This document shows, piece by piece, positions 4,001 to 42,217 of a DNA stretch of 42,217 nucleotides. The translations under genes were made by a program, and so were the position numbers. Each line of letters begins with the position of its first letter. Position 1 is the first letter of the stretch. Source of the stretch: a virus; the IMG/VR virus record IMGVR_UViG_3300032607_000889, positions 1-42,217 of that record, one strand, 5' to 3'. Below the pieces are notes generated by a model. The model had not been told where the DNA came from. It did not search any database and saw only the letters and a list, made by a program, of their open reading frames with translations.

Positions 4001-4703
4001 ATGTTTTAAAGTTATCTAATGAAAGTAGCCACTCTATTTGAAAGGGCGGATATAAATTTTCAATTTCAAAAGGACTTTTGTATGGAGTTACTTCAATATA
4101 GTTCTGAACTTGACCTAAACCTGTACCAGTTTTAGGTGTAGGAGTATCAATAAGCTCTGGAAATTTTTGTTCAAAAATTTTAGAAAAGCCAGAAGCTTGG
4201 CCTGCGGTTGCAAGATATTTACCTCTCCAATAAAATGTTTTACCCGGTGTAAGATTTGGTATAGTATCTGTGGCAAGTAAGTTATACGAATTAACAGTAG
4301 GCCATTCAATATCATTACCTTGAGCGTTCTTTTTAGTAGTACTAAGTTCCTTTTGCATAATCAAAGGACTCATAGTAGGGCTCAAACTAACTTGAAAAAC
4401 AATACCTATTTGCTTAAACTGTAGGTCAGGTGAAGTACTACTGTTTAAAAAAGTGCTTAAAGTTAGTTGACGTTGAGCAGTAGTACTAGAAGGTGAAACT
4501 GCTGTAGGTGTTTTAACTGGAGGGTCTTCGGTAGTTCTCCATACCGAACCATTAGAAAAATACATTCTTCCATCTGCGCTATAAGCAAATGAACCCACGT
4601 AAGGCGCAGGATCTAAATCCGCTAGATCGTCTGCATGAACTATTGTTGGCCCCATTACTGCCGACTTATTTTGCAGTGTCTTTTGATCACTTAAATTTGC
4701 CAT
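1092..4703 (-). CDS. Large tail fibre / receptor-binding protein with fibronectin-III-like repeats
   Basis: This protein has 1203 residues from the ATG chosen here. That ATG overlaps the stop of the upstream gene as TAATG, so coupled re-initiation is likely; an in-frame alternative start 18 codons upstream is less likely. An N-terminal attachment segment (about 1-60, with SFAYSADGRMYFSNGSVWR) is followed by about six repeats near 100 residues apart. Each ends in a strand such as TFYWRGKY, TFYWKARY, IYYWKARY, TYNWKVMY or YYVRVRYYS, the G-strand pattern of fibronectin type III domains. A C-terminal region around residue 960 contains DWYAPSRDELEVCF, like the DUF1566-type carbohydrate- or receptor-contacting tips of other fibres. 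The role is probably host binding at the tail end, encoded late in the tail operon. Exact trimer or monomer organisation is unknown. Confidence 0.75.
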   Translation of the reverse strand: MANLSDQKTLQNKSAVMGPTIVHADDLADLDPAPYVGSFAYSADGRMYFSNGSVWRTTEDPPVKTPTAVSPSSTTAQRQLTLSTFLNSSTSPDLQFKQIGIVFQVSLSPTMSPLIMQKELSTTKKNAQGNDIEWPTVNSYNLLATDTIPNLTPGKTFYWRGKYLATAGQASGFSKIFEQKFPELIDTPTPKTGTGLGQVQNYIEVTPYKSPFEIENLYPPFQIEWLLSLDNFKTSFPGIKTDITSGNPFDTFKFIREAGTTFYWKARYYSTPASAGGSKVSAYSPVGINVQVKDVLTPATINVPGVTAKTVRLKLSPYSSVTKKARIRTEWLVADSLENLEVLQTNAETVRPELTNNSDSLDILTLPAAILADSSTIYYWKARYINSDNIASDFSPTDTFVRYPEFVTPAIITVKNADTKTLTISDFKSEYSTIYPYESTEWVLYDITTNQVLVPATPTVGNTFDVFSYSETSLQPGKQFKWTARQKNKRGAYSTLVQSENYQIPWIDTPKAISTGNTSSLISSQYSSAYFVRAKFSVITITGPDDVNIIITSSADSNTINKFERLLGYSSELIQGTTYNWKVMYIGETARGGTVTSKESSVSSYVQPDIVKTPVIKTPTEAQINGPKIDLSSSDLALYTSPGIVKAEHLYSDWEMSTNPGFTQSGYVDSVSKSTIHKTTWTTDKLKINTAYYVRVRYYSDVGKSYWSDTSTYLFKTPDAYNHSLNYTPIPRQIAKEYPAAGGYYAGDIWHYATSATNSAYTIGGPSTVKNGVPILFKVPNMQFAPLFYLGQKVQIRSQEYPRYIQIEGVVRIASADELTIEVTNVFKDSSITANSIIISTWVVMSLYRIILSYKSKGEVSGTNATIRGRTVTSGRTNYPDSGNGTGWGTNATNTMNFALLEKPLLEDPDYFTPFSSSSTFIDWPDEFLSLSDGSLIQKAMWRHSWLVYALSQIPGVVSDPVERANTKYLPENLYPLAHYVYEFNKVEDIAKKANTDPTKYYFSDWYAPSRDELEVCFRNLTPTEPSTTAGQVSTTRGIYYDTSVSVSSQFLRLNSAASVYGQISDSYSTDLTYSPTIRTANGSNNNSKPIVHAYAYKYNDLNSNGTKAGFFSLKVPPKGYVTPYLKTTLEKFAFNGTESLLKAGYLTMISTSTSDTVPTDTAKNHRVFTMYVAADLSFFGKQGVVLGENSSSYTRLIRRELA

Positions 4704-5215: not shown

Positions 5216-8200
5216 TTAAAAACTCCTAGAAATTGAGGCTCTGGTAGCTACCCTGCGTACTGCTTGATCAAACGGTGTACCGCCTAATTCCCCAGTATCT
5301 GCACTAATTTGTAATCCACCAACAAATAGTGCATTACCTTGATCGTCTTGTCCTGACGCAATAACAATGGCATCATTTTCTTCAACAATAGAATCTTGAA
5401 TACTTGCATTATTATTAGCTGGAGGTATTTTTGTAAGTGCAACACCACCCATTACAGAAGTCCAAGTGTGCCCAATAGCGGTAATGCGGCTTGGTTCTAT
5501 AATAAAACTCGGACTAAATATGTTGCTTTTCATAGTGCTAATTAATGTAGTGACAATTGTTTTATCTGCTGGTGTAAACGCATAGTCTGTGCTTGTATCC
5601 ATTAAATCAATTATTTTATTAGTTATAGTGTTGAATGAAAATGTAAAAGCATTTTTACCGCTAAATACATTGCTATATTTATTTATTGTTGCAAACATTA
5701 AATTAGATAAATTATCAACTAATGCTGCTATTTGCGGGTAGTTTTGTACTGTGCTAGGGTTAGTTTTAACTGCTTTAAGTATGTAGTTTAAACCAACAAT
5801 TGTAGCTTCAGCTTTACCTTCGCTGATTACAAACCTACCGGGTGAGGTAAATAAACCTTGTATAAATGTTTTTAATGCAGTATCGTTACCTGCATAAATA
5901 CTAGTTCTAATAGATGTCATTAAATTTTTTGCATCACGAATAGTAAGTTCTTTGTCAGTTGTTGACCAACCTGTGGTATATTTTGCAAAAGTTAACTCAT
6001 TCCACATATCTTCAGGAATAGTGTCATTTATAACAAGTACATCTGGGGTACCTGTATACCGCACAACTGGTATAGCTGTTGAAATTTCTACGCTAATTGA
6101 ACTATTTAAAGCCGCAAATAGTTGTGTTATATAAGCTCTAGCTGAAGCGGATGCGCTAATACTTGGTAAAGATAAAACTCTGTCTCGTATTGTTGTAAAA
6201 GAAAATTTAAACCCAGGTATTTTTTGGTCACTAAATACAAGCTCACCTTTATAGTTATATAGTGCAATAGCAAAATCCATCATATACTGTTCATTACCAG
6301 TATTTATAGTATTTTGTAGTGCTACCAGTAGTGTATTAGTGTCTCTGCGAGTATAAATTTGATCAATACCCGGAACCGCGTTTGTACCCCAATTCCAAGT
6401 AGAGGTATATCTACCAGAAACTAATGTATCACATACAGCATCAATAATACCTAGTTTATCACTATCATTAATTCTAACAGTAGAGTTTGGTGTATAAGTA
6501 ATATTTGTTTTTGTTGGTTTTGCTTTATTAAGTTTATATATTAGTGCAGTAAATAATGATTTTATTAATGCAACTGCTTGTGTACTAATACCAGGTAGCG
6601 CAACTATATAATCACGTATAAAATTAAATGAATATAGTGTTCCACCAAATTTACTATCACCAATTACAAGTGTACCTGTTGGTGTATATAACCCTTTTGC
6701 AAAGGTATGCATTGAAGATTCATCACCGTTTTGTAGTACTTGTTCTAGCGCATTTAGCAGCGTAAGAGTGTCTCTGCGAGTAAACGCTTTATCAGTTCCG
6801 TCACTACCGTCTGCATTAATCCAGTTCCACGTAGTAGTATACCCAGCAGACTGTAGTGCAACACACACAGCGTCAATAATTTGTGGTTCTGCATCATTAA
6901 TAATCATAGCAGCTGCATCTTGCACTGTAGGAGTAACTTCAGACTTACTTAATCCTAGGTATACAGGAGTGCTATTAGTATCAAACATACCTTTAGCAAA
7001 ATCAAGCATAGGCTGCTGATTTCCACTACCAACAGACCATACTAAACACTGTAATAGTAGTCTAGCGTCTGATCCTGTTTTTTCCTGCATTGTTGGGTCT
7101 AAATTTATGTCGTACTTTTTAGCAGTTAATTCATTTAATAGATGATATATAATTATATCAGTGTTTTTAAATATAATAGGGTTACCAAGAATATCGGTAG
7201 TAGAAGTAACATTGTCTTTGGTAATAAGCTCTACTATTTTTTGGTTTTTTATATTAAAAGAATCAGGTAACCTAACCGGACTAACCAAACTGCGTCCGCC
7301 ACTAGCAAATAGTGTGTAATCTCCGAACTGTGTGGAACAGCCGCTTAAAATTAATTGACCCCCACTAATTGCCATAAAGTGTTTGTGTGCCCAGATTGAG
7401 ACAGCATTAACAGCGTTAATTAGTGCACCATTTTTAGCACAGTAACCAATACCATTTGGTAATACTGGTGTAGCACCCCAAGTCATGATGTTTGGGAATA
7501 TACTATACTGCGAAATAACGGCGCCGTCTGCTAAACAAACACCTCCAGCACGTTTTACATAGGGATTTCCATTTGCTGCATCTAGTGGAGGAGGGATTAT
7601 ACCCCAATCAGGTGTTGCTCGAACAGCTATTTTATGTGCGTAAGGAACGCGCATAATTTTTGCACCAGGGCGAAAACTAACGGCAAAACCCTCTGTAGGA
7701 TTTTCAAAACTGTCTACTTGCCAGCCTTCAAACATTACACCTTCTAAAAAGCATCCGCTACCCATACGAAATACATTACGCTGTTCATAGCCTTTTTCCG
7801 GGCGTACAAAAACCGTACGGTGTACAGCTTTAACAACGCAATTATCGGGCATATCTAAATGCCCTTTTGTACGATAGTCGCTAAAAGGTCCAATTTCAAT
7901 TAGTGTATTGATGTTTAATTTTTGTAGCTCTGTGGCAACGGCCAATGCGTGCTCAATAGTAAGAAAAGCTGTTTTCCAACTACCTCCATCATAGGAATCG
8001 TTACCATTAGATTTAACATATAGTGTGTTACCTGTAGTGTACTCTAAACCAATAGCACTGGGGTATCGTTTTATTTCTTTTGCGGTGTTATTGTCATTAC
8101 GATAAAGTATTAAGTATTCCGAATCTATAGGGGACGGAACACTAAAATATTTATCATTAGTTGTGCCGTTTAATCCGGCAGCTATTGAGGAAAATATATT

Positions 8201-31338: not shown

Positions 31339-32625
31339 TTAAAGGGTGTATGTATAAAGAGCATAGCGAATTGCATCAGCCATATGAGAGTACTCATCGT
31401 GTTTTGGACGTTCACGCTGTAAACCTTCTTTGGTATCCCAACGATACTGGTCGAACACTGCTCGTGAGTGTGTACAGTGCGGCGCTACTTTTAAACGACC
31501 CTGTGCTACTAGAGTTTGCACATAAGCAATGCCGGGTAAGACGTCTTTTTTAGCTTTAACAGACGCTAAATCATACATATAAGCCAAGTCCGAGGCAAAC
31601 TGTGCAGCAGCTGAGTCAATAAAAATTGATTCTACACCCCACTTGGTACACAGTTCCTGAAACTTTTCAGCGTGTGCTTGTGTAGTTGCCTCCGACTCTA
31701 AGTACTCGTCTACAATCCAGAACCAGTTGGTAACCTCATCGTATACTAGTACACAAAATGCTGTTGCATCGCGGTATCCAGGGTCACAGCCAGCAATGGC
31801 TTCTCCCACCAAGTCACTAGGAGGTTCTAAAACATCAGCTTCACTTAACGAATAAATTTGGCCCTCAAACACTGTGAAACTGGCAAGGTATTCTTGCTCA
31901 AACTCAGCTTTAGACATAGACCTGCGGGCTTCGGCTACATCCGACTCAGCCATACGCAAGTTCTCTGAATAGTCTGCTTGTAAGGAAACCCACTCTGGAA
32001 AGTTAGGGTCAAATCCGCGATTCCAGAACTGTGAAAACCAGTTGTTGCGACCACGAGGAGTTGAAATAAAGATAGCTTTTGAATTAGGTTTGTCTAGGGT
32101 AGGCCTTAGGGCAACGTTAAACGCAGCTTCTCCACCTTCACCTAAGGCAGCCTCGTCAAAAATAATTAAATCGTACGATCTACCAACAGTGGAGTCAACT
32201 GTTGATAAGGAACCCATTCTGATAGTTGATCCGTTTGAGAGCTCAATGATCTTGTCTTTTAAGTTGTCTCTGGAAACTTCTAGGTCAAAGTGCTTGATTA
32301 GTTTACGTTGTAGTTCAAACGAGATTGACGAGAGGTTGTAGTTAGGCGAAATAATTAAAACGTTACAGCCTGGAACTAATGTAACCAGTTGCCCTACTAC
32401 ATTAGCAATATAAGTTTTACCGAGTCTACGTGCAAGGGCAGCACACACAAAACGGTACTTAGGATCGTTGACAGCGTTGATTAAGGCGATTTGGGGTCGG
32501 TTAATGGTATCGTAAATATCTAGAAGTTTTAGATAGTTTACAATCGGTAGTTTAATAAAACGTTTATCAGCTGGAAACTCTTGAATAACATCGCAGTTAA
32601 CGTCTGGTCGTGAAATAGTTAGCAT
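31339..32625 (-). CDS. terL: Terminase large subunit (packaging ATPase/nuclease)
   Basis: 428 residues from the ATG that overlaps the end of the upstream gene (ATGCTAA), with AGGA before it; an earlier in-frame start would add 13 residues without a ribosome site. The ATPase half has a Walker A variant ALARRLGKTY and Walker B DLIIFDEAA, and the coupling motif FISTPRG. The nuclease half has the three acidic positions of the RNase H-like fold: AGCDPGYRD, IFIDSAAAQ and DEYSHMADAIRYAL. It pumps DNA through the portal and cuts it. It lies in the TerS - unknown - TerL transcript. No missing key residue. Confidence 0.95.
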   Translation of the reverse strand: MLTISRPDVNCDVIQEFPADKRFIKLPIVNYLKLLDIYDTINRPQIALINAVNDPKYRFVCAALARRLGKTYIANVVGQLVTLVPGCNVLIISPNYNLSSISFELQRKLIKHFDLEVSRDNLKDKIIELSNGSTIRMGSLSTVDSTVGRSYDLIIFDEAALGEGGEAAFNVALRPTLDKPNSKAIFISTPRGRNNWFSQFWNRGFDPNFPEWVSLQADYSENLRMAESDVAEARRSMSKAEFEQEYLASFTVFEGQIYSLSEADVLEPPSDLVGEAIAGCDPGYRDATAFCVLVYDEVTNWFWIVDEYLESEATTQAHAEKFQELCTKWGVESIFIDSAAAQFASDLAYMYDLASVKAKKDVLPGIAYVQTLVAQGRLKVAPHCTHSRAVFDQYRWDTKEGLQRERPKHDEYSHMADAIRYALYTYTL

Positions 32626-33194
32626 GCAACATCCTTTAGTATAAACCCTAGTCGATCGCCGCACGTACTTTGATAAAATTCGTCACGCCACACAGGTACT
32701 ATGGTGTTGGCTGTGTGATTATGGAAGTCATCGTTGTAGCGAAAGTGCACTTCAATTATGTGATCACCAACTACTTCCACATTAAAATGTGCGTACCGCT
32801 CGGCCACCGCTTGCAGTTGTGCGGGTAACACAAATTGATCGGGTACCCGAGTCCAGTGTGAAAATCTGTCTAATCGCTGGCTGTTTCGAAAACCTTCTAC
32901 TGCCAGAGTCTGGTGTCCGTGGCAGTAGTCAAAGCTTAAGTGTCGGCCTGAAAATACTTCACACCAAAAGTATCCGTCAGGAATTGAGTCTGAATCCAAA
33001 TACTCTAGGGCGGCACCCCGACTCATCATGCGCAAGTTCATTAGTGGGCGTACAATATACTTGCCAGGTTTGGGCGCAATGCCACAAGGACCACAGTAGT
33101 ATCCTAGCTTTTTGGAGAGTATAAGTTTGTCACAACACCAAAGATCACTTATGTCAATGGTGTCGAACACATCACTGTCGCTGACCAAGATCAT
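32619..33194 (-). CDS. Hypothetical protein between the terminase subunits
   Basis: I do not recognise this 191-residue protein. It overlaps TerS by 4 bp and TerL by 7 bp, so all three are coupled. It is rich in aromatic residues and has several Cys and His (LWCCDK, YYCGPCG, FDYCHGH), which could bind a metal, but no standard zinc motif is evident. The middle has IVRPLMNLRMMSRGAALEYL. Location inside the packaging operon suggests a role in DNA packaging or in termini processing; that is inference only. Confidence 0.7.
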   Translation of the reverse strand: MILVSDSDVFDTIDISDLWCCDKLILSKKLGYYCGPCGIAPKPGKYIVRPLMNLRMMSRGAALEYLDSDSIPDGYFWCEVFSGRHLSFDYCHGHQTLAVEGFRNSQRLDRFSHWTRVPDQFVLPAQLQAVAERYAHFNVEVVGDHIIEVHFRYNDDFHNHTANTIVPVWRDEFYQSTCGDRLGFILKDVAC

Positions 33195-34147: not shown

Positions 34148-34471
34148 ATGACTGCAAAAATCGTAAACTATACCCCTGAGCAAACCCTGAAACTGGTTGC
34201 TGACTACACCAACGGCGTGACTGTTGACGCTATCGCGGCTGAACTGGGTAAATCTGTTCGCTCTATCGTTGCCAAGCTCTCGCGTGAGAAGGTGTACGTT
34301 GCCAAGACTTATGCGACCAAGACGGGCGAGGCTGTGATTAAAAAGGACACTGTAGCCGACTATATCGGCGAATCCTTGGGCTTGTCGGAGGCTGATACTG
34401 AATCGCTGACCAAGGCCAATAAGGTTGCACTTAAAGCAATCGCTGATTTTATCAGGGCTGAAAAGACCTGA
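34148..34471 (+). CDS. Small helix-turn-helix DNA-binding protein, paralogue A
   Basis: 107 residues. Residues about 7-50 (NYTPEQTLKLVADY then GVTVDAIAAELGKSVRSIVAKLSREKVY) form a three-helix HTH unit resembling the N-terminal domain of GcrA/SANT-like regulators (TxExxxxL...G.S...IA..LG...R..V..KL.R). The C-terminal motif ESLTKANKVALKAIADFI is shared with three other proteins in this window (38667-38993, 40162-40476, 41583-41900). A is closest to B. The family probably binds DNA and may act on the palindromes between these genes; that is inference. Good AAGGA ribosome site, unlike the leaderless neighbours. Confidence 0.75.
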   Translation: MTAKIVNYTPEQTLKLVADYTNGVTVDAIAAELGKSVRSIVAKLSREKVYVAKTYATKTGEAVIKKDTVADYIGESLGLSEADTESLTKANKVALKAIADFIRAEKT

Positions 34472-35024: not shown

Positions 35025-35324
35025 ATGAATAAAGTTATTAAGGCACTGATGGTATTGGGCGAATGGGAGATGACCAGCATTAACACTGTTGCAGACATTA
35101 CCCTGTATATTGGCATTACTGCCGACACTGCACGTATTCTGGTTGATGTTGATGGTATTGATTTCTTTTATACTAAAGACACAAAAGATATTGCAGCGGT
35201 TCGGGCTGCACATAAACTGTTTTGCTATGGTGAGGATAATGTAACTCAGGCAGAATATGCACTGGCTGAGACACTGCAGCCTGTTATTGGCGATGGCTGT
35301 AAGTTGCATCGCTTTATACCATAA
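35025..35324 (+). CDS. Hypothetical 99-residue protein
   Basis: Reads MNKVIKALMVLGEWEMTSIN at the start, then VADITLYIGITADTARILVDVDGIDFFYTKDTKDIAAVR. The first 60 residues look like a winged-helix unit (helix, helix, IGITADTARILVD recognition-type helix), so DNA binding is possible but unproven. AAGGG precedes the ATG. A GC-rich stretch with parS follows within 10 bp. Confidence 0.6.
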   Translation: MNKVIKALMVLGEWEMTSINTVADITLYIGITADTARILVDVDGIDFFYTKDTKDIAAVRAAHKLFCYGEDNVTQAEYALAETLQPVIGDGCKLHRFIP

Positions 35325-35333
35325 TAGCCCCGG

Positions 35334-35349
35334 TGTTTCACGTGAAACA
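35334..35349. promoter_or_regulatory. parS site 1 (exact)
   Basis: TGTTTCACGTGAAACA, identical to the widely conserved chromosomal ParB-binding site. It is embedded in a longer 20-bp palindrome (35332-35351). Confidence 0.85.
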
Positions 35350-35352
35350 CCT

Positions 35353-35375
35353 CAAACGCGAATCATTCGCGTTTG
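35353..35375. repeat. Palindrome A, copy 2 (compensated variant)
   Basis: Arms CAAACGCGAAT and ATTCGCGTTTG. The T-to-C change in one arm is matched by A-to-G in the other, which keeps the pairing. Confidence 0.9.
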
Positions 35376-35386
35376 GAGGCGCCAAA

Positions 35387-35416
35387 ATTATACCATATAA
35401 TTTTGGCCCGTGTCAA
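35387..35416 (-). promoter_or_regulatory. Leftward module promoter 2
   Basis: TTGACA (35411-35416), 18-bp spacer, TATAAT (35387-35392) with TGG before the -10. A 12-bp inverted repeat (35381-35407) spans spacer and -10. Palindrome A follows at about +6 and parS at about +32. Confidence 0.8.
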
Positions 35417-35472
35417 TGATTTTTGTGAAAATATATTTTTATTTTGTGCGAAAAAACCACGCTTTTTTGTTG

Positions 35473-35478
35473 TATAAT
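35473..35478 (+). promoter_or_regulatory. -10 box of a leaderless promoter
   Basis: TATAAT with TTAACTC-type spacing; six bases to the ATG at 35485. Nearly identical to the unit at 34621. Confidence 0.6.
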
Positions 35479-35484
35479 TAACTC

Positions 35485-35610
35485 ATGAACAAATTTGTTG
35501 CCTTTGGTATCCTAACAATCTCTGTGCCAGTCTTGGCATTTGCTGGTTTAATTGTTGGCCCTGATTTTATTTTTTGGCCCCTGACAAAATTCGTATTTTC
35601 TTTGGTATAA
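35485..35610 (+). CDS. 41-residue membrane protein, leaderless
   Basis: Begins MNKFVAFGILTISVPVLAFA and ends LTKFVFSLV, with one long or two short hydrophobic helices. It has no ribosome site and the -10 box is six bases from the ATG. Its stop codon lies inside the -10 box of the SprT-like gene (TGGTATAAT). Function unknown. Confidence 0.5.
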   Translation: MNKFVAFGILTISVPVLAFAGLIVGPDFIFWPLTKFVFSLV

Positions 35611-35611
35611 T
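35606..35611 (+). promoter_or_regulatory. -10 box of the SprT-like gene
   Basis: Extended TGGTATAAT, seven bases before the ATG at 35619, so the mRNA should have no leader. Confidence 0.55.
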
Positions 35612-35618
35612 TTAACTT

Positions 35619-35975
35619 ATGCGAACACTACAACAAACCCTCGATATTGTAACCAACTCTGTTTGGCAGGGGCTGGCTGAAACATATCCAAAATTGCTGC
35701 GATTTGACCCGCCTAAAATTATCTTGTGCAATCGGCTTACAAAAACAGCGGGAAAAAATTATCAGACCTTAAACAAGGTTCACATGGCAAATAAATTTTT
35801 TGCCCGTAATTATCAGGAAATGTTACACGTTATTTTGCCGCATGAATTGGCGCATCAAGCCGACTATAATTTATTTGGAGAATCAGAAAAAAAATGTGGT
35901 CACGGCGTGCGCTGGGCTGAAATTATGCTACAATTAGGGCTTCCCGCAAACAAATATCATTCACTGGAAATTTAA
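35619..35975 (+). CDS. SprT-like zinc metalloprotease
   Basis: 118 residues. The zinc site is seen as HELAHQADY (HExxH) near residue 76, followed by HGVRWAEIMLQLG near 95, the third-ligand region of the SprT/Spartan family. In cells such domains cut proteins crosslinked to or stalled on DNA. The first part (PKIILCNRLTKTAGKNYQTLNKVHMANKFF) matches the family's beta-sheet edge. The C-terminal zinc ribbon of full-length SprT is missing, so this is a minimal protease domain. It is probably translated from a leaderless mRNA. Substrate unknown; host DNA-bound proteins are possible. Confidence 0.75.
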   Translation: MRTLQQTLDIVTNSVWQGLAETYPKLLRFDPPKIILCNRLTKTAGKNYQTLNKVHMANKFFARNYQEMLHVILPHELAHQADYNLFGESEKKCGHGVRWAEIMLQLGLPANKYHSLEI

Positions 35976-35976
35976 C

Positions 35977-36189
35977 ATGACAAAAGTTTTTGAAACCCTT
36001 GGAACCATTGCCGGAATTATTGGGGCTTTTTTGGTTGCGTTTAAATTTGCACAATATGGATACCCTTTTTTCTTTTTGTCTTCTGTTTGTTTACTGATTT
36101 CTGCAATACGTTTAAAGCAAAAGAATTACATTGCGTTACAAGGTGTTTTCTTTTTGGCAAATGTTGTGGGGCTTGTAAACTACGTTTGA
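35977..36189 (+). CDS. Small membrane protein, three predicted helices
   Basis: 70 residues starting one base after the SprT-like stop. Hydrophobic segments lie at about 9-24, 28-44 and 52-70 (GTIAGIIGAFLVAFKFA; PFFFLSSVCLLISAI; ALQGVFFLANVVGLVNY), with the N(A)xGLxNY ending common in small PnuC-like or CBU_0592-like membrane proteins. It probably needs coupling with the upstream gene for translation, as no ribosome site is seen. Function unknown. Confidence 0.6.
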   Translation: MTKVFETLGTIAGIIGAFLVAFKFAQYGYPFFFLSSVCLLISAIRLKQKNYIALQGVFFLANVVGLVNYV

Positions 36190-36193
36190 AACC

Positions 36194-36217
36194 GTGAAAC
36201 AGTTTATACTGTTTCAC
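36194..36217 (+). terminator. Hairpin overlapping parS 2
   Basis: A 10-bp stem (GTGAAACAGT / ACTGTTTCAC) with the loop TTAT; its right arm is half of parS 2. The two structures exclude each other as RNA or cruciform. Confidence 0.55.
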
Positions 36218-36225
36218 GTGAAACA
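36210..36225. promoter_or_regulatory. parS site 2 (exact)
   Basis: TGTTTCACGTGAAACA, exact match to the chromosomal ParB site. Confidence 0.85.
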
Positions 36226-36252
36226 CACAAATGCGAATGATTCGCATTTGTG
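36226..36252. repeat. Palindrome A, copy 3
   Basis: Arms extended to 13 bp (CACAAATGCGAAT / ATTCGCATTTGTG) around one G. Confidence 0.9.
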
Positions 36253-36261
36253 GGCGCCAAA

Positions 36262-36291
36262 ATTATACCACATAATTTTGGCCCGTGTCAA
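36262..36291 (-). promoter_or_regulatory. Leftward module promoter 3
   Basis: TTGACA (36286-36291), 18-bp spacer, TGG plus TATAAT (36262-36267); inverted repeat 36256-36282. Confidence 0.8.
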
Positions 36292-36295
36292 GCTT

Positions 36296-36346
36296 TTTGC
36301 GATTGATTTTTACTATCGGGTCGATAGGAAAAGACAATGACGATTT
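36296..36346 (+). repeat. Direct repeat C, copy 1
   Basis: Shares GCGATTGATTTTT, CTAT and AAAAGACAATGACGATTT with 37048-37104. Both copies sit just upstream of a rightward promoter for an enzyme gene. Confidence 0.75.
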
Positions 36347-36357
36347 TTTATAAAAAC

Positions 36358-36386
36358 TTGCACAAACCACAAAAACCCGCTATAAT
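36358..36386 (+). promoter_or_regulatory. Promoter of the HAD phosphatase gene
   Basis: TTGCAC (36358-36363), 17-bp spacer, TATAAT (36381-36386); leader of about 26 nt with AAGGA before the ATG. Confidence 0.75.
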
Positions 36387-36418
36387 AAACACATACCAAG
36401 CAAACAAGGAAACACAAA

Positions 36419-36895
36419 ATGGCTAAAATTAATCGGGTTGCAATTTACGACATGGACGGCACAATCGTTGACTCAAGCGCGCGTTATCGCACAATCGTTG
36501 ACGAATCCGGCGAACGTATCGATCTTGATTACTGGAGAGAAAATCAAGGCTTGGCAATGCAAGATAAACTGTTGCCATTATACACACAATATCAGGCTGA
36601 TTTGGCTGATAACTCATGCTATGTTATTATTGCCACTGCGCGGGTAATGAATGAGCCAGATTGGGAATTTGTTGACGATATTTTAGGCGCTCCTGATTAT
36701 TTTATTTCACGCAAAGACGGTGATACACAATCAGGCAAAACACTTAAAATTAACGGTTTGGCAAAGTTTTTTAATCTAAATAATTTCAAAAATGCTGATT
36801 TTGTTTTTTACGAAGATAATGTTAGTTATTTAAAAGCGGTTTGTGACCGTTTTAATATTCGTGGTGTTTACATTCCAAGCAAACAAGGTCACTAA
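36419..36895 (+). CDS. HAD-superfamily phosphatase
   Basis: 158 residues with all HAD motifs: DMDGT (11-15, the nucleophile Asp11 and acid Asp13), IATAR (motif II, near 71), Lys in KTLKINGL (motif III) and YEDN (motif IV, near 137). The small cap region fits phage HAD proteins acting on nucleotides or on DNA/RNA 3' phosphates. It neighbours a DEDDh exonuclease with a nearly identical upstream sequence, suggesting joint control in nucleic acid metabolism. The true substrate cannot be read from sequence. Confidence 0.8.
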   Translation: MAKINRVAIYDMDGTIVDSSARYRTIVDESGERIDLDYWRENQGLAMQDKLLPLYTQYQADLADNSCYVIIATARVMNEPDWEFVDDILGAPDYFISRKDGDTQSGKTLKINGLAKFFNLNNFKNADFVFYEDNVSYLKAVCDRFNIRGVYIPSKQGH

Positions 36896-36927
36896 AATAT
36901 AAAGCCGGGTTTACCCGGCTTTATATT
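36896..36927 (+). terminator. Bidirectional terminator after the HAD gene
   Basis: A 14-bp stem (arms 36896-36909 and 36914-36927, GC-rich inner part AAAGCCGGG) with the loop TTTA. T-rich sequence follows on both strands, so it could stop the HAD transcript and the leftward transcript from module 4. Confidence 0.85.
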
Positions 36928-36940
36928 TTCACGTGAAACA
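36925..36940. promoter_or_regulatory. Near-parS site (14 of 16)
   Basis: ATTTTCACGTGAAACA differs from parS only in the first two bases; the right half is perfect. It lies 13 bp from parS 3. Confidence 0.55.
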
Positions 36941-36952
36941 TTTGCGCTTGAA

Positions 36953-36968
36953 TGTTTCACGTGAAACA
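36953..36968. promoter_or_regulatory. parS site 3 (exact)
   Basis: TGTTTCACGTGAAACA within a 20-bp palindrome (36951-36970). Confidence 0.85.
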
Positions 36969-36978
36969 TTCCAGAACC

Positions 36979-37001
36979 CAAATGCGAATCATTCGCATTT
37001 G
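36979..37001. repeat. Palindrome A, copy 4
   Basis: Arms CAAATGCGAAT and ATTCGCATTTG around C, at about +6 to +28 from module promoter 4. Confidence 0.9.
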
Positions 37002-37012
37002 GCGGCGCCAAA

Positions 37013-37042
37013 ATTATACCATATAATTTTGGCCCGTGTCAA
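37013..37042 (-). promoter_or_regulatory. Leftward module promoter 4
   Basis: TTGACA (37037-37042), 18-bp spacer, TGG plus TATAAT (37013-37018); inverted repeat 37007-37033. Confidence 0.8.
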
Positions 37043-37047
37043 GGGCC

Positions 37048-37104
37048 GGGCGATTGATTTTTTCTATGGTTAGGGCGGGCGTGATAGTAAAAGACAATGA
37101 CGAT
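37048..37104 (+). repeat. Direct repeat C, copy 2
   Basis: Counterpart of 36296-36346, with a longer middle part. Ends AAAAGACAATGACGATTT as copy 1 does. Confidence 0.75.
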
Positions 37105-37119
37105 TTATTTAAAAATACT

Positions 37120-37147
37120 TTGACAAAGGCCAAAACTACGCTATAAT
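37120..37147 (+). promoter_or_regulatory. Promoter of the exonuclease gene
   Basis: TTGACA (37120-37125), 16-bp spacer, TATAAT (37142-37147). Transcription should begin at the ATG of a 16-codon mini-gene. Confidence 0.8.
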
Positions 37148-37153
37148 CTATAC

Positions 37154-37204
37154 ATGGCAGCAAAGAGCTACCATCCGCGATTATCCGGCGGTTCCGGTTT
37201 ATAA
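37154..37204 (+). CDS. 16-codon leader mini-gene
   Basis: Reads MAAKSYHPRLSGGSGL and stops six bases before the AAGG-type site of the exonuclease gene. Its ATG is six bases after the -10 box, as in the leaderless genes here. It may be a leader peptide that tunes exonuclease translation, or merely the transcript start. No independent support. Confidence 0.35.
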   Translation: MAAKSYHPRLSGGSGL

Positions 37205-37213
37205 GGTTACAAA

Positions 37214-37912
37214 ATGGCAAAAAAGCAATTCTTCGCAATTCTCGATACAGAAACCACAATGGCTGATACTGTTGCCGATTTTGCAATTATTATCGTTGAC
37301 CGTGAAGGCAAGATTTATAATCAATGCGCGGTTCTGGTTGCTGGACATTATAGCACGCATGAGCTTTTTCACGATAAAGCTGCAAACGACATTTGGGGTT
37401 ATTCTGGTTTGGAAAAACGCAAAGCAAATTATGCTGCAATGCTTGATTCTGGAACTCGCATGGTTGCTTCTGTTGCTGCAATTAATAAATGGATTAATCA
37501 AGCCATTGGCAAATATAATCCTGATTTGACTGCTTATAATCTGGCGTTCGATAAGTCAAAATGCCTTAATACTGGAATTGATTTGTCCGGTTTTAATTCC
37601 GAGTTTTGTTTGTGGTCTGCTTCTGTTGGTAATATCTGCAACAAAAAAGATTTTCGACAATTTGCTCTTGATAATCACGCGTTCAATAAGCCTACGGCGC
37701 AAGGTAATATGACCTTTCAAACTAATGCCGAAATTGTTTGTGGCTTTATTAATGGCGAGTTTGTAAAAGAGCCGCATACTGCCCTTGAAGATGCGCGAGA
37801 TTTTGAGTTGCCTATTCTCAAAGCCATTATCAAAAAGCGTAACTGGAAAGATAATATCAAGCCTTATAACTGGCGCGATTTTCAAGCCAAAAACTGGTTT
37901 ACTGCTAAATAA
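37214..37912 (+). CDS. DEDDh 3'-5' exonuclease (DnaQ/RNase T-like)
   Basis: 232 residues. The DEDD acidic positions are seen: LDTETT (Asp10, Glu12) as Exo I, TAYNLAFDKSKC (Asp near 114) as Exo II, and HTALEDARDFELPIL (His and Asp near 188-193) as Exo III of the h type. The middle carries several Cys and an insertion (FCLWSASVGNICNKKDFRQFALDNHAFN). The protein would remove nucleotides from DNA or RNA 3' ends; it may recycle host DNA or proofread. AAGG lies before the ATG. It is monocistronic, between a promoter and a UUCG terminator. Confidence 0.85.
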   Translation: MAKKQFFAILDTETTMADTVADFAIIIVDREGKIYNQCAVLVAGHYSTHELFHDKAANDIWGYSGLEKRKANYAAMLDSGTRMVASVAAINKWINQAIGKYNPDLTAYNLAFDKSKCLNTGIDLSGFNSEFCLWSASVGNICNKKDFRQFALDNHAFNKPTAQGNMTFQTNAEIVCGFINGEFVKEPHTALEDARDFELPILKAIIKKRNWKDNIKPYNWRDFQAKNWFTAK

Positions 37913-37918
37913 ATAATA

Positions 37919-37936
37919 TAAGCCCTTCGGGGCTTA
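37919..37936 (+). terminator. UUCG hairpin after the exonuclease gene
   Basis: TAAGCCC-TTCG-GGGCTTA with further partial AT pairing outside. Confidence 0.75.
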
Positions 37937-37966
37937 TTATCCCGATTATTAATAAAGGAATATAAA

Positions 37967-38110
37967 ATGGCTAATGAATTTGATTTGGTTGATGAAATGA
38001 TGTGGGAAGATTTAACCGAGTTTTTAACGCTGGAAGAGGCAGGGCTTGAAAATTCTGATTATGATACTGTTACTGCTAAAATGAAACCATACTTTGATGA
38101 GGAACTATAA
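37967..38110 (+). CDS. 47-residue very acidic protein
   Basis: Starts MANEFDLVDEMMWEDLTEFL and ends MKPYFDEEL. It has many Asp and Glu and few basic residues, as in DNA mimics or small inhibitors, but nothing more specific can be seen. AAAGGA precedes the ATG. The stop overlaps the next start as TAATG, so the two are coupled. Confidence 0.65.
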   Translation: MANEFDLVDEMMWEDLTEFLTLEEAGLENSDYDTVTAKMKPYFDEEL

Positions 38111-38295
38111 TGGCTGGAATGATTTTGAATTATACTTTTCGCGATGATGCCCTTATTCAATTGGACGGCCCGGACGTAGTATACTGGCCCGGTATGGGTA
38201 AACCGGAATTTATGGGTAAACTGAATGATTATGCTGAAATATATCCGGCTAGAATAACCGAACTGGTTGCCGAGGGTATTATCACTGCAAAATAA
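38110..38295 (+). CDS. Hypothetical 61-residue protein
   Basis: Reads MAGMILNYTFRDDALIQLDG, then PDVVYWPGMGKPEFMGKLNDYAEIYPARITELVAEGIITAK. It has a beta start and a helical end. It is coupled to the acidic protein by TAATG. Not recognised. Confidence 0.6.
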   Translation: MAGMILNYTFRDDALIQLDGPDVVYWPGMGKPEFMGKLNDYAEIYPARITELVAEGIITAK

Positions 38296-38297
38296 AT

Positions 38298-38329
38298 AAT
38301 AACCGATAATCGCAAGATTATCGGTTATT
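38298..38329 (+). terminator. Bidirectional hairpin after the 38110-38295 gene
   Basis: A 13-bp stem (AATAACCGATAAT / ATTATCGGTTATT) with the loop CGCAAG. On the minus strand it runs into TATTTATTTT, so it can also stop the leftward transcript from module 5. Its last base is the first base of parS 4. Confidence 0.8.
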
Positions 38330-38344
38330 GTTTCACGTGAAACA
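38329..38344. promoter_or_regulatory. parS site 4 (exact)
   Basis: TGTTTCACGTGAAACA. Confidence 0.85.
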
Positions 38345-38353
38345 ACTCAGATG

Positions 38354-38376
38354 CAAATGCGAATGATTCGCATTTG
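38354..38376. repeat. Palindrome A, copy 5
   Basis: Arms CAAATGCGAAT and ATTCGCATTTG around G. Confidence 0.9.
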
Positions 38377-38387
38377 GGGGCGCCAAA

Positions 38388-38417
38388 ATTATAACATATA
38401 ATTTTGGCACGTGTCAA
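38388..38417 (-). promoter_or_regulatory. Leftward module promoter 5
   Basis: TTGACA (38412-38417), 18-bp spacer, TGT plus TATAAT (38388-38393); inverted repeat 38382-38408. Confidence 0.8.
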
Positions 38418-38666: not shown

Positions 38667-38993
38667 ATGACCGCAAAAACCGTAAACTACACTCCAGAGC
38701 AAACCGTTCAAATCGTGGCTGATTATACCGCAGGTGTGACCGTCGAGCAAATTGCCGAAAACTTGGGCAAGTCGGTTCGCTCTGTTGTGGCTAAACTGTC
38801 ACGCGAAAAAGTGTATGTTGCAAAAACTTACGTTTCCAAAACTGGCGAAGCTGTCCAGAAAAAAGATGCCGTGGCTGATGCTATTGGCGCTGTGCTGATG
38901 ATGACGGAATCAGAAATCGAATCGCTGACCAAAGCCAACAAAACGGCATTGGCTAAAATCTTCTCGGCATTGGCTAATTCTCGGCCACTGTAA
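38667..38993 (+). CDS. Small helix-turn-helix DNA-binding protein, paralogue B
   Basis: 108 residues, very close to paralogue A (shared NYTPEQT, VADYT, GVTV, LGKSVRS, AKLSREKVYVAKTY). The HTH region is about residues 7-50, with the C-terminal ESLTKANKTALAKIF motif. Divergence from A is mainly at helix 2 (VEQIAEN versus VDAIAAE) and in the C-terminal half, so target preference may be similar. It has its own promoter, ribosome site (AAAGGA) and terminator, hence a complete stand-alone transcription unit between repeat modules. Confidence 0.75.
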   Translation: MTAKTVNYTPEQTVQIVADYTAGVTVEQIAENLGKSVRSVVAKLSREKVYVAKTYVSKTGEAVQKKDAVADAIGAVLMMTESEIESLTKANKTALAKIFSALANSRPL

Positions 38994-40161: not shown

Positions 40162-40476
40162 ATGACCGCTACCGCAAAACCACAGAACTATACTCCAGAG
40201 CAAACCACCCTGCTGGTCGAGGCTTATAAAGCAGGAACCTCAATCGAGCAAATCGCCAGCGAGCTGGGTAAGTCGACCCGCAGCATCGTGGCCAAGCTCT
40301 CTCGCGAAGGTGTGTACCAGCCTAAATCTAAAAGCAAAGGCGAAACGCGAGTTAAAAAAGCTGAGCTGGTGGATCGACTTGCTGCACTGTGCGAAGTTGC
40401 TCCAGAAGTATTTGAGTCGCTGGAAAAGGCTAACTACGAAGTACTTGAGCTCCTCCTGCAAAAACTTTGTGCCTAA
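40162..40476 (+). CDS. Small helix-turn-helix DNA-binding protein, paralogue C
   Basis: 104 residues. It shares NYTPEQT, the G-(T/S)-(S/V)-(I/V)EQIA turn, ELGKSTRSIVAKLSRE and GVY with A and B, but the linker is different (QPKSKSKGETRVKKAELVDRL) and it lacks the VAKTY motif. The C-terminal SLEKANYEVLELLLQKL matches the family. More diverged than A and B, so possibly a different target. It is the last rightward gene before the large RNA and has its own promoter. Confidence 0.75.
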   Translation: MTATAKPQNYTPEQTTLLVEAYKAGTSIEQIASELGKSTRSIVAKLSREGVYQPKSKSKGETRVKKAELVDRLAALCEVAPEVFESLEKANYEVLELLLQKLCA

Positions 40477-40503: not shown

Positions 40504-40532
40504 TTGAACATGGGGGCTGATCGCTGTATAAT
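40504..40532 (+). promoter_or_regulatory. Upstream promoter of the large RNA
   Basis: TTGAAC (40504-40509), 17-bp spacer, TATAAT (40527-40532); expected start near 40539. Confidence 0.75.
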
Positions 40533-40587
40533 ATATACTTAACGCAGCAAACAAAGCAAAGCGGTTGCAAGCAGTAAAAATATTGAT

Positions 40588-40617
40588 TTGCGCAAGTTAT
40601 GTGTTTTATAGTATAAT
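40588..40617 (+). promoter_or_regulatory. Proximal promoter of the large RNA
   Basis: TTGCGC (40588-40593), 18-bp spacer, TATAAT (40612-40617); expected start near 40624, at an ATG. Confidence 0.6.
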
Positions 40618-40623
40618 AGTTAT

Positions 40624-41411
40624 ATGGAATTTATTGGGTGGAAAGCGGGTGGAAAGCGGGTGCAATTCACGGCACGCTTCCTTAATAGCAGAGAACGACG
40701 TTCCCGACCTGCTGCCCTTAGCTCTTATAAATTAGTAGACCAGCTGTTTGCTGGCAGTAAAAGTTCAAAGTTCAATACAAGTATTTATGTGCAGGCTCTG
40801 AGGCCTGGGTCCAAGTAATGAACAGACAGCAATCTGGATCATGAACGCGCTCGCCAGCCCACCTTGACCATGAATATTTTGCGAACAGCTACTTTGCAGG
40901 TCTACTAACTTATGGGTGTTATGAGTGCAAAGATACCTGCATAACAACTTAATGACAACCGAAAGAAATCTCTAGTTGTCGCCTATTCCAATCTGGTAGC
41001 CCTCTGATGATGGTCTGACCCTAAACTGCAGCCCGCAGTTTTAAATGTGACCGAAACCCCCACAGTAGTGTGATTGCTGGCAACTGCTGCAATTTTCACG
41101 GTTGGGGGTCAGGATAAAACTTGGCGGCTGAGTTCCCGCCTCAAGCCAGGCGGATATCCTAGGCAGCATATGTCTATAGCCCATGCCGAGACGGAGCCTG
41201 CGATAGGGGCTTACACTGAGGAAACCAGGCTGCTGTGATGCAGCACTACGCGAACCGTACTAAACTAGCAATGCAAGGGATACCGCCCGGCCAGTACCCA
41301 GGACTGAACCTTCTGCTAATCTGGTGCGTAGAGTGTGCTTGTGCAGGTGGATTGTTCAACCACTGCGAGTTCTGAGCCCCACAAGGAGTCATGACCTTGT
41401 GGGGCTTTTTT
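40624..41411 (+). ncRNA. Large structured non-coding RNA, GOLLD/ROOL-like candidate
   Basis: About 790 nt bounded by tandem promoters and an intrinsic terminator, without a convincing gene. Perfect helices include 40732-40741 with 40899-40908 (TTAGTAGACC / GGTCTACTAA, closing a 157-nt domain), 40917-40923 with 40940-40946, 40954-40959 with 40975-40980, 41023-41029 with 41035-41041, 41056-41062 with 41103-41109, 41111-41116 with 41155-41160 enclosing 41123-41127 with 41136-41140, and 41229-41233 with 41240-41244. Composition is more GC-rich than the genes around it. Size, phage context and aquatic-type genome fit GOLLD, a phage-borne ornate RNA made during lysis; I cannot confirm the family by eye. 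RNase P, tmRNA and group I/II introns do not fit. Confidence 0.65.
41375..41411 (+). terminator. Terminator of the large RNA
   Basis: A 12-bp stem (AGCCCCACAAGG / CCTTGTGGGGCT) with an 8-base loop, followed by TTTTTT. Confidence 0.92.
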
Positions 41412-41440
41412 ACGTCCAAACACAATTGCTTGGGCGCCAA

Positions 41441-41582: not shown

Positions 41583-41900
41583 TTATGTCGGATTAACTCG
41601 ACTTAGGGTCAAGTTTGTGGCCAGCAACTGTAAAACAGTTTTATTTACCTTTTCCAGTGACTCCAATTGATCTGGTGGCACCTGCAGCAATTCTGCTAAT
41701 TCTAAAATTTGTTGGGATTTTTTTATGGGTGGCTCACCACGCTTATTTAGGTAAGGTTTTTTGTTGTAAACACCTAAACTCGATAATTTTGCAATTATTG
41801 AACGTTCTGGTACCTCTAGCTGCTTTGCTATCTGTTCAACAGGCACCTGCTGTGAATACTGCTGGACCATACGGTCAGTGATTTCTTGTGTATAGCGCAT
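41583..41900 (-). CDS. Small helix-turn-helix DNA-binding protein, paralogue D
   Basis: 105 residues from the ATG two bases after the upstream stop; a TTG start five codons earlier would overlap it. It is the only copy on the minus strand. The HTH reads YTQEITDRMVQQYSQQVPVEQIAKQLEVPERSIIAKLSSLGVYNKK and the C-terminal motif ESLEKVNKTVLQLLA matches the family. LGKS is replaced by LEVPE, so it is the most diverged in the turn region. Being encoded with the 41903-42217 gene, it belongs to a different transcript from A-C and may be expressed at another time. Confidence 0.75.
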   Translation of the reverse strand: MRYTQEITDRMVQQYSQQVPVEQIAKQLEVPERSIIAKLSSLGVYNKKPYLNKRGEPPIKKSQQILELAELLQVPPDQLESLEKVNKTVLQLLATNLTLSRVNPT

Positions 41901-41902
41901 AG

Positions 41903-42217
41903 TTATAGGTCCCAAGGCATTTCAACGTGCTCACGAGGCTTCTGCGCTTTGTCTGGCGTAGCTTTCCATACTTGGTGATCAATTAGTGCTTGTGGCACCG
42001 TGTCCCAGGCATTAGGGTCTAAGACCATATACTCGGTGCGTAGGGTAGGGTGTGCGACCCAAACTTGTGCAAGCATTGTGGTTACCAGTTTAGGTGCTGT
42101 TTCCAGAACTGTTCCTCGCATACCACGCAAACACCACGACGATGTAGGGGCTTGTACAGTGCCTGCACGTGCTCCAGTTTTAACAGTTAAACCCTGCGTG
42201 CGAAGCTCTAGGAGTTC
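41903..42217 (-). CDS. Hypothetical protein, 5' part beyond the window
   Basis: The frame is open to the window edge; 104 C-terminal residues are visible. It contains GLTVKTGARAGTVQAPTSSWCLRGMRGTVL, then VTTMLAQVWVAHPTLRTEYMVLDPNAWDTVP, and ends HVEMPWDL. The ordered Trp/Pro pattern and lack of low complexity suggest a real folded protein. I do not recognise the family. It is translated two bases before paralogue D starts, so the pair are in one transcript. Confidence 0.7.
   Translation of the reverse strand, partial: ELLELRTQGLTVKTGARAGTVQAPTSSWCLRGMRGTVLETAPKLVTTMLAQVWVAHPTLRTEYMVLDPNAWDTVPQALIDHQVWKATPDKAQKPREHVEMPWDL

Follow-up and report, generated by a model that had tools for sequence, protein, structure and literature searches.

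Exact chromosomal-type parS sites in the pre-early block of a T5-like phage fragment suggest recruitment of host ParB

The IMG/VR virus record IMGVR_UViG_3300032607_000889, analyzed here over its whole 42,217 bases (the window; no completeness estimate is given for it and no end repeats were noted), carries four exact copies of the palindromic 16-mer TGTTTCACGTGAAACA clustered in 3 kb, together with a near copy, ATTTTCACGTGAAACA, that matches at 14 of 16 positions (two mismatches). By sequence, these 16-mers are chromosomal-type parS sites, identical to chromosomal parS1 and differing from it in lying on phage DNA in which no parAB was found. The region bearing them is, as named by homology (dmp and A2-family genes), a T5-type pre-early block. 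ParB of the bacterial host probably binds the sites, and we lean slightly towards the fuller explanation that host ParB is recruited to the pre-early DNA, spreads, and acts on this region in cis.

A preliminary description of this DNA had reported the four exact 16-mers and the 14/16 copy, had judged chance to be practically excluded, and had placed all five sites between genes. A sequence scan confirmed the sites and their positions (Table 1). From base composition, 1.6e-5 exact copies would be expected, against the four observed, and matches with up to three mismatches number six, compared to 0.26 in shuffled sequence. All five sites are intergenic relative to the likely + strand genes; a 68-amino-acid minus-strand mechanical open-reading frame (36041-36247) that spans the site at 36210 was not counted as a gene. 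The four exact copies have a mean pairwise identity of 100% across the core, against 21% for the 16 upstream bases and 35% for the 16 downstream bases, and since the identical core lies between nearly unrelated flanks, the 16-mers are not simply part of a longer duplicated unit.

Its gene content marks the window as part of a T5-like phage genome, a fragment of 42 kb. The late genes place with T5-like phages in PHROGs and tblastn comparisons, the portal is 40% identical to that of Demerecviridae members, and matches to the T5 tail completion protein p143, the major tail protein and the terminase are present as well. No DNA-level match to a cultured relative was found over positions 1-25000 of the window, and a host look-up by portal search of genome contigs gave no match. 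Beyond the terminase the genes switch to the + strand, and the gene there that has parS on both sides is a dmp homologue: it falls in PHROG 415, the family of the dmp genes of T5 and Vibrio phage phi 3, and its best tblastn phage matches carry the dmp annotation. The genes for small helix-turn-helix (HTH) proteins at 34148, 38667, 40162 and 41583 match PHROG 1725, the A2 family of T5 and phi 3, with moderate strength. In T5, dmp and A2-family genes belong to the pre-early set, encoded in the terminal repeat that enters first, and by analogy we infer that the window block also enters early. These homologies make what had been described as a phage accessory region more than merely accessory. A T5 A1 query gave no match in the window clade, a search made with no positive control and one that a diverged A1 could have escaped.

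No match to the ParB_N (PF02195) or ParA-type AAA_31 (PF13614) profiles was obtained in the window, in agreement with the parA- and parB-free stretch described earlier, or in the large relatives searched (the largest 112 kb, completeness unstated). ParB_N likewise went unmatched in 20 further viral records, each of which has multiple parS or parS-like sites. All of these negatives are limited by the presence of fragments among the records; phi 3 gave a single sub-threshold ParB_N match (E 0.01). With neither ParA nor ParB turning up in the window or in its large relatives, the protein that binds the sites is probably the host's own ParB.

Eighty IMG/VR relatives were collected through the portal, and the 16-mers were followed across related phages, as had been proposed. 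A sister contig (L005) shares 99.8% identity with the window across 8.2 kb and carries exact parS in three places. One of these is the junction 3' of dmp, where L005 has one exact copy in a different arrangement, against the near copy and the exact copy of the window. Scanning for a pattern of parS next to the promoter module described below gave seven further family contigs (L235-L241) with exact parS in the same block, which overturned an impression, gained from the T5-like relatives collected by portal only, that parS was species-specific. Compared to the window, parS in these seven is exact, while dmp, where present, is 59-91% and terminase 73-95% identical. In a gap orthologous between the window and L235, the hairpin palindrome has been swapped for an unrelated one and parS is unchanged. 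About 22 family relatives have the same block without parS, their best match having at least three mismatches, and on a dmp tree the parS trait requires at least three changes. Retention of parS while its surroundings are replaced is, as these alignments suggest, the behavior of a functional, host-dependent protein site and not of a hairpin or terminator. The preliminary description had allowed for palindromes drifting freely among relatives as mere terminator hairpins, and the sites do adjoin terminators and sit in repeat modules, as terminator or RNA hairpins or duplicated module copies that bind no protein might. This explanation is nevertheless highly improbable, given that the 16-mer stays unaltered where hairpins vary or have been exchanged, and that the flanks of the four copies are unrelated.

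The sites also hold a regular position relative to promoters. Between the + strand genes lies a repeated module, consisting of a reverse-strand TTGACA-18-TATAAT promoter, with a TG element in most copies, and then a perfect palindrome at the predicted start. Four of the nine such reverse promoters, from which transcription is predicted by their sequence, have parS at approximately +31 to +54. Of the 11 family records searched, 10 have the promoter-like module, and it adjoins the terminase wherever its relative position is known. The nine reverse promoters face the 3' ends of + strand genes, and a palindrome or hairpin follows most of them. In pre-early gaps of four relatives (L009, L015, L020 and L070), beside the reverse promoters, the slot that parS takes in the window is occupied by a different repeated motif, approximately AAACAAAAGTATT.

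Vibrio phage phi 3 (T5-like, infecting V. cholerae; record L222) is an independent, convergent case of putative parS sites in a T5-like pre-early region. Its parS-type sites lie only in the terminal repeats. One, TGTTTCACGTGGAACA at 821, precedes the dmp start by 59 bp; the other, an exact parS at 2934, lies between A1 and A2, and copies recur in the right repeat. The same gaps hold a second motif, TTTACANTGTAAA. All seven Vibrio T5-like records tested carry this motif, which falls in the A1/A2 region or in a terminal repeat wherever its position was checkable; neither T5 nor Aeromonas phage AhSzw-1 nor the window clade has it. In the records L222, L230, L231 and L233, it is mostly paired and in the A1/A2 region. 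V. cholerae parS2 is a 15-bp AT-rich inverted repeat with a TGTAAA half-site conserved in all ten sites (PMC3688505), and parS2 is restricted to Vibrio and Photobacterium (PMC3141006). TTTACANTGTAAA fits this description and would be the Vibrio chromosome-II centromere motif, differing from it in lying on phage DNA in which no parAB was found. The full parS2 consensus, that of Yamaichi and colleagues in 2007, is reportedly NTTTACANTGTAAAN. A paired-motif query matched 183 phage records, of which Vibrio phages account for 161; the idea that all parS2-type matches in these 161 are functional was rejected, as some lie in coding sequence of near-identical genomes (e.g., D270).

Phage JSF10 (L230; sites at 4222 and 6370) differs from phi 3 (L222; 821 and 2934) by the same C-to-T change at both parS sites, and the occurrence of this change at both while five other CACGTG sequences are intact suggests that both sites answer to one factor. 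Restriction avoidance was rejected as the cause of the CACGTG loss on the persistence of those five.

The first-step-transfer region of T5 resembles the window block in its dmp and A2-family genes and in its inverted repeats, which the window block also has, and differs in having neither parS nor parS2. The T5 injection stop signal has been described with DnaA boxes, that is, host-protein sites (PMC13250531); the window block has one strict DnaA box, at 36578, inside the dmp gene. The parS sites of phi 3 and the window differ from the stop signal in adjoining dmp, A1 or A2, and a location of parS at a T5-type stop signal is not supported, as the phi 3 sites lie at 0.8 and 2.9 kb, short of the end of the 7.8-kb repeat. 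An array of about 11 DnaA-type boxes (ACCTGTGGATA repeats) was observed at approximately 5500-5650 in the pre-early block of the relative L061.

Together, the promoters and the Vibrio motif bear on whether the palindromes could be operators of a phage regulator, such as the A2/D5-like HTH proteins, that resemble parS by convergence. Four HTH paralogues are encoded in the same block, the sites lie at +31 to +54 of strong reverse promoters, and TTTACANTGTAAA adjoins A2. On the other hand, relatives without parS still have HTH paralogues, T5 has A2 but not TTTACANTGTAAA, and coincidence would be needed twice, for two different motifs that match two different host ParB specificities; we consider operators of this kind quite improbable.

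In the explanation that we favor, host ParB dimers would bind phage parS and close as clamps dependent on cytidine triphosphate, which would slide into the flanking DNA and form a ParB patch across the small pre-early genes and the back-to-back promoters. Genes under the patch would include dmp and those for A2-like DNA-binding proteins, and ParB would repress or time the pre-early genes in cis, the binding, the spreading and the transcriptional effect being the steps that we infer. Cis regulation is favored over tethering or partition, the main rival, and titration in turn, because the sites lie in promoter-bearing gaps and because native ParB of Pseudomonas aeruginosa represses genes beside the intergenic sites parS3 and parS4 (PMC5521831).

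Several points weigh against the action of host ParB in cis. A ParB in the host of this phage is assumed, and since the window is a fragment, the rest of the phage could encode a diverged ParB. The block-bearing relatives without parS make the site either dispensable or host-specific. The canonical core is lost at both JSF10 sites, and AhSzw-1 has neither parS nor TTTACANTGTAAA. Silencing by ParB is also not automatic, since in Bacillus subtilis a spo0J null left gene expression without significant change, as quoted in PMC5521831.

Tethering or partition would have host ParB and ParA (with SMC) hold the phage genome near the origin or nucleoid, or allow its inheritance in slow-growing cells. 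This is consistent with past work on two other systems. In sporulating Bacillus, the phi29 genome is a reported target of Spo0J (Meijer et al. 2005, as cited in PMC9437464). Like the T5-like phages, phi29 and its relatives are lytic, and the relative B103 has a host-type parS with no ParB_N found there; the phi29 use of Spo0J differs as a sporulation-linked trapping, and the exact site of B103 differs in lying inside a late gene and not in a pre-early block. On SGI1, parS mimics stabilize the element through the plasmid ParABS of IncC plasmids, so that a mobile element with parS only exploits the ParAB of another replicon (PMC10954446); it differs in being an integrative element that uses plasmid ParABS, for stable inheritance and helper displacement. 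Other phages likewise have exact parS and no ParB_N. However, a single site would be enough for partition, making repeated placement in promoter-bearing pre-early gaps unnecessary, and inheritance appears of little use to lytic T5-like phages, T5 itself destroying host DNA early. We judge partition or anchoring unlikely.

Titration, in which replicated phage parS would pull ParB off the host origin and disturb segregation or division, was among the roles first proposed for these sites. That proposal of host ParB use is supported as far as no ParB of the phage's own was found, but its titration variant looks less likely than a role in cis because the sites are confined to the block or, in phi 3, to the terminal repeats, and are not spread through the genome. 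Four sites per genome would outnumber host sites once replicated, and SGI1 copy number does likewise to its helper plasmid (PMC10954446); still, a phage that degrades host DNA would gain little, and we judge titration improbable.

Phage records with exact parS number well over 100 and include phages of Gordonia, Arthrobacter, Listeria, Lactobacillus and Bacillus, suggesting that the trick extends more widely. Arthrobacter phage Atuin (L229) has two exact parS sites, and the pair recurs 176,888 bases further on, as terminal repeats predict. Among GC-rich viral contigs, L170 has one exact parS and ten one-mismatch copies over approximately 5 kb, and L199 has one exact parS, one one-mismatch copy and four two-mismatch copies over approximately 2 kb; ParB_N was found in neither.

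Host ParB use (phi29) and parS mimicry (SGI1) are already known. Not found in the open-access papers searched were the pre-early location of the sites, their conservation against replaced surroundings, and host-matched parS1 and parS2 in Vibrio T5-like phages. Such a pattern suggests that ParB recruitment as infection begins has arisen convergently and is matched to the host, which is relevant to a problem still unsolved for T5-like phages, namely how two-step DNA entry and the shut-off of pre-early genes are controlled. A broader idea, which we hold as doubtful, is that T5-like phages coat their first-entering DNA with host-matched replication and segregation signals of the chromosome (parS1, parS2 and DnaA arrays), and that ParB freed by destruction of the host chromosome would load onto phage parS and shut off the pre-early genes, the destruction itself serving as a timing signal.

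Table 1 Features of the parS-bearing block and its surroundings in the window; gene names are by homology
Feature	Position	Strand	Remarks
Exact parS site 1, TGTTTCACGTGAAACA	35334..35349	.	3' of gene 35025-35324; exact in sister contig L005 too
Exact parS site 2	36210..36225	.	upstream of dmp homologue; orthologous L235 site exact
Near copy ATTTTCACGTGAAACA, 14/16	36925..36940	.	abuts dmp terminator; absent in sister L005
Exact parS site 3	36953..36968	.	downstream of dmp homologue
Exact parS site 4	38329..38344	.	downstream of gene 38110-38295
Module 1: palindrome CAAACGCGAATCATTCGCGTTTG and sigma70-type promoter TTGACA-18-TATAAT	35350..35416	-	parS at about +32..+47 from predicted start
Module 2, layout as module 1	36226..36291	-	parS at about +31..+46
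Module 3, layout as module 1	36969..37042	-	parS at about +39..+54; near copy +67..+82
Module 4, layout as module 1	38345..38417	-	parS at about +38..+53
Nine near-consensus sigma70-type promoters	34564, 35416, 36291, 37042, 38417, 38520, 39459, 39560, 41470	reverse	
Terminase large subunit	31339..32664	-	pre-early block just beyond, in opposite orientation; location compared with T5 and JSF10
T5 dmp homologue (deoxynucleoside-5'-monophosphatase), pre-early gene	36419..36895	+	phmmer against T5 dmp, 41 bits
Small HTH protein, A2/D5-like	34148..34471	+	PHROGs 1725 and 323
HTH paralogue, A2/D5-like	38667..38993	+	GcrA-like match below cut-off
HTH paralogue, A2/D5-like	40162..40476	+	
Fourth HTH paralogue, A2/D5-like	41583..41915	-	
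SprT-like gene in pre-early block	35619..35975	+	PF10263, above cut-off
Exonuclease-like gene in block, DnaQ-like by inspection	37214..37912	+	PHROG 20187, no assigned function; kept in relatives

An Rfam scan of the block gave sub-threshold matches only. One stretch of about 900 nucleotides, 40520-41420, reached no Rfam match at the gathering score of its family; it is GC-richer, without a convincing gene, and has a strong terminator at its end, making it a candidate large structured RNA. It folds 5.2 standard deviations better than shuffled sequences and has partial matches in relatives.

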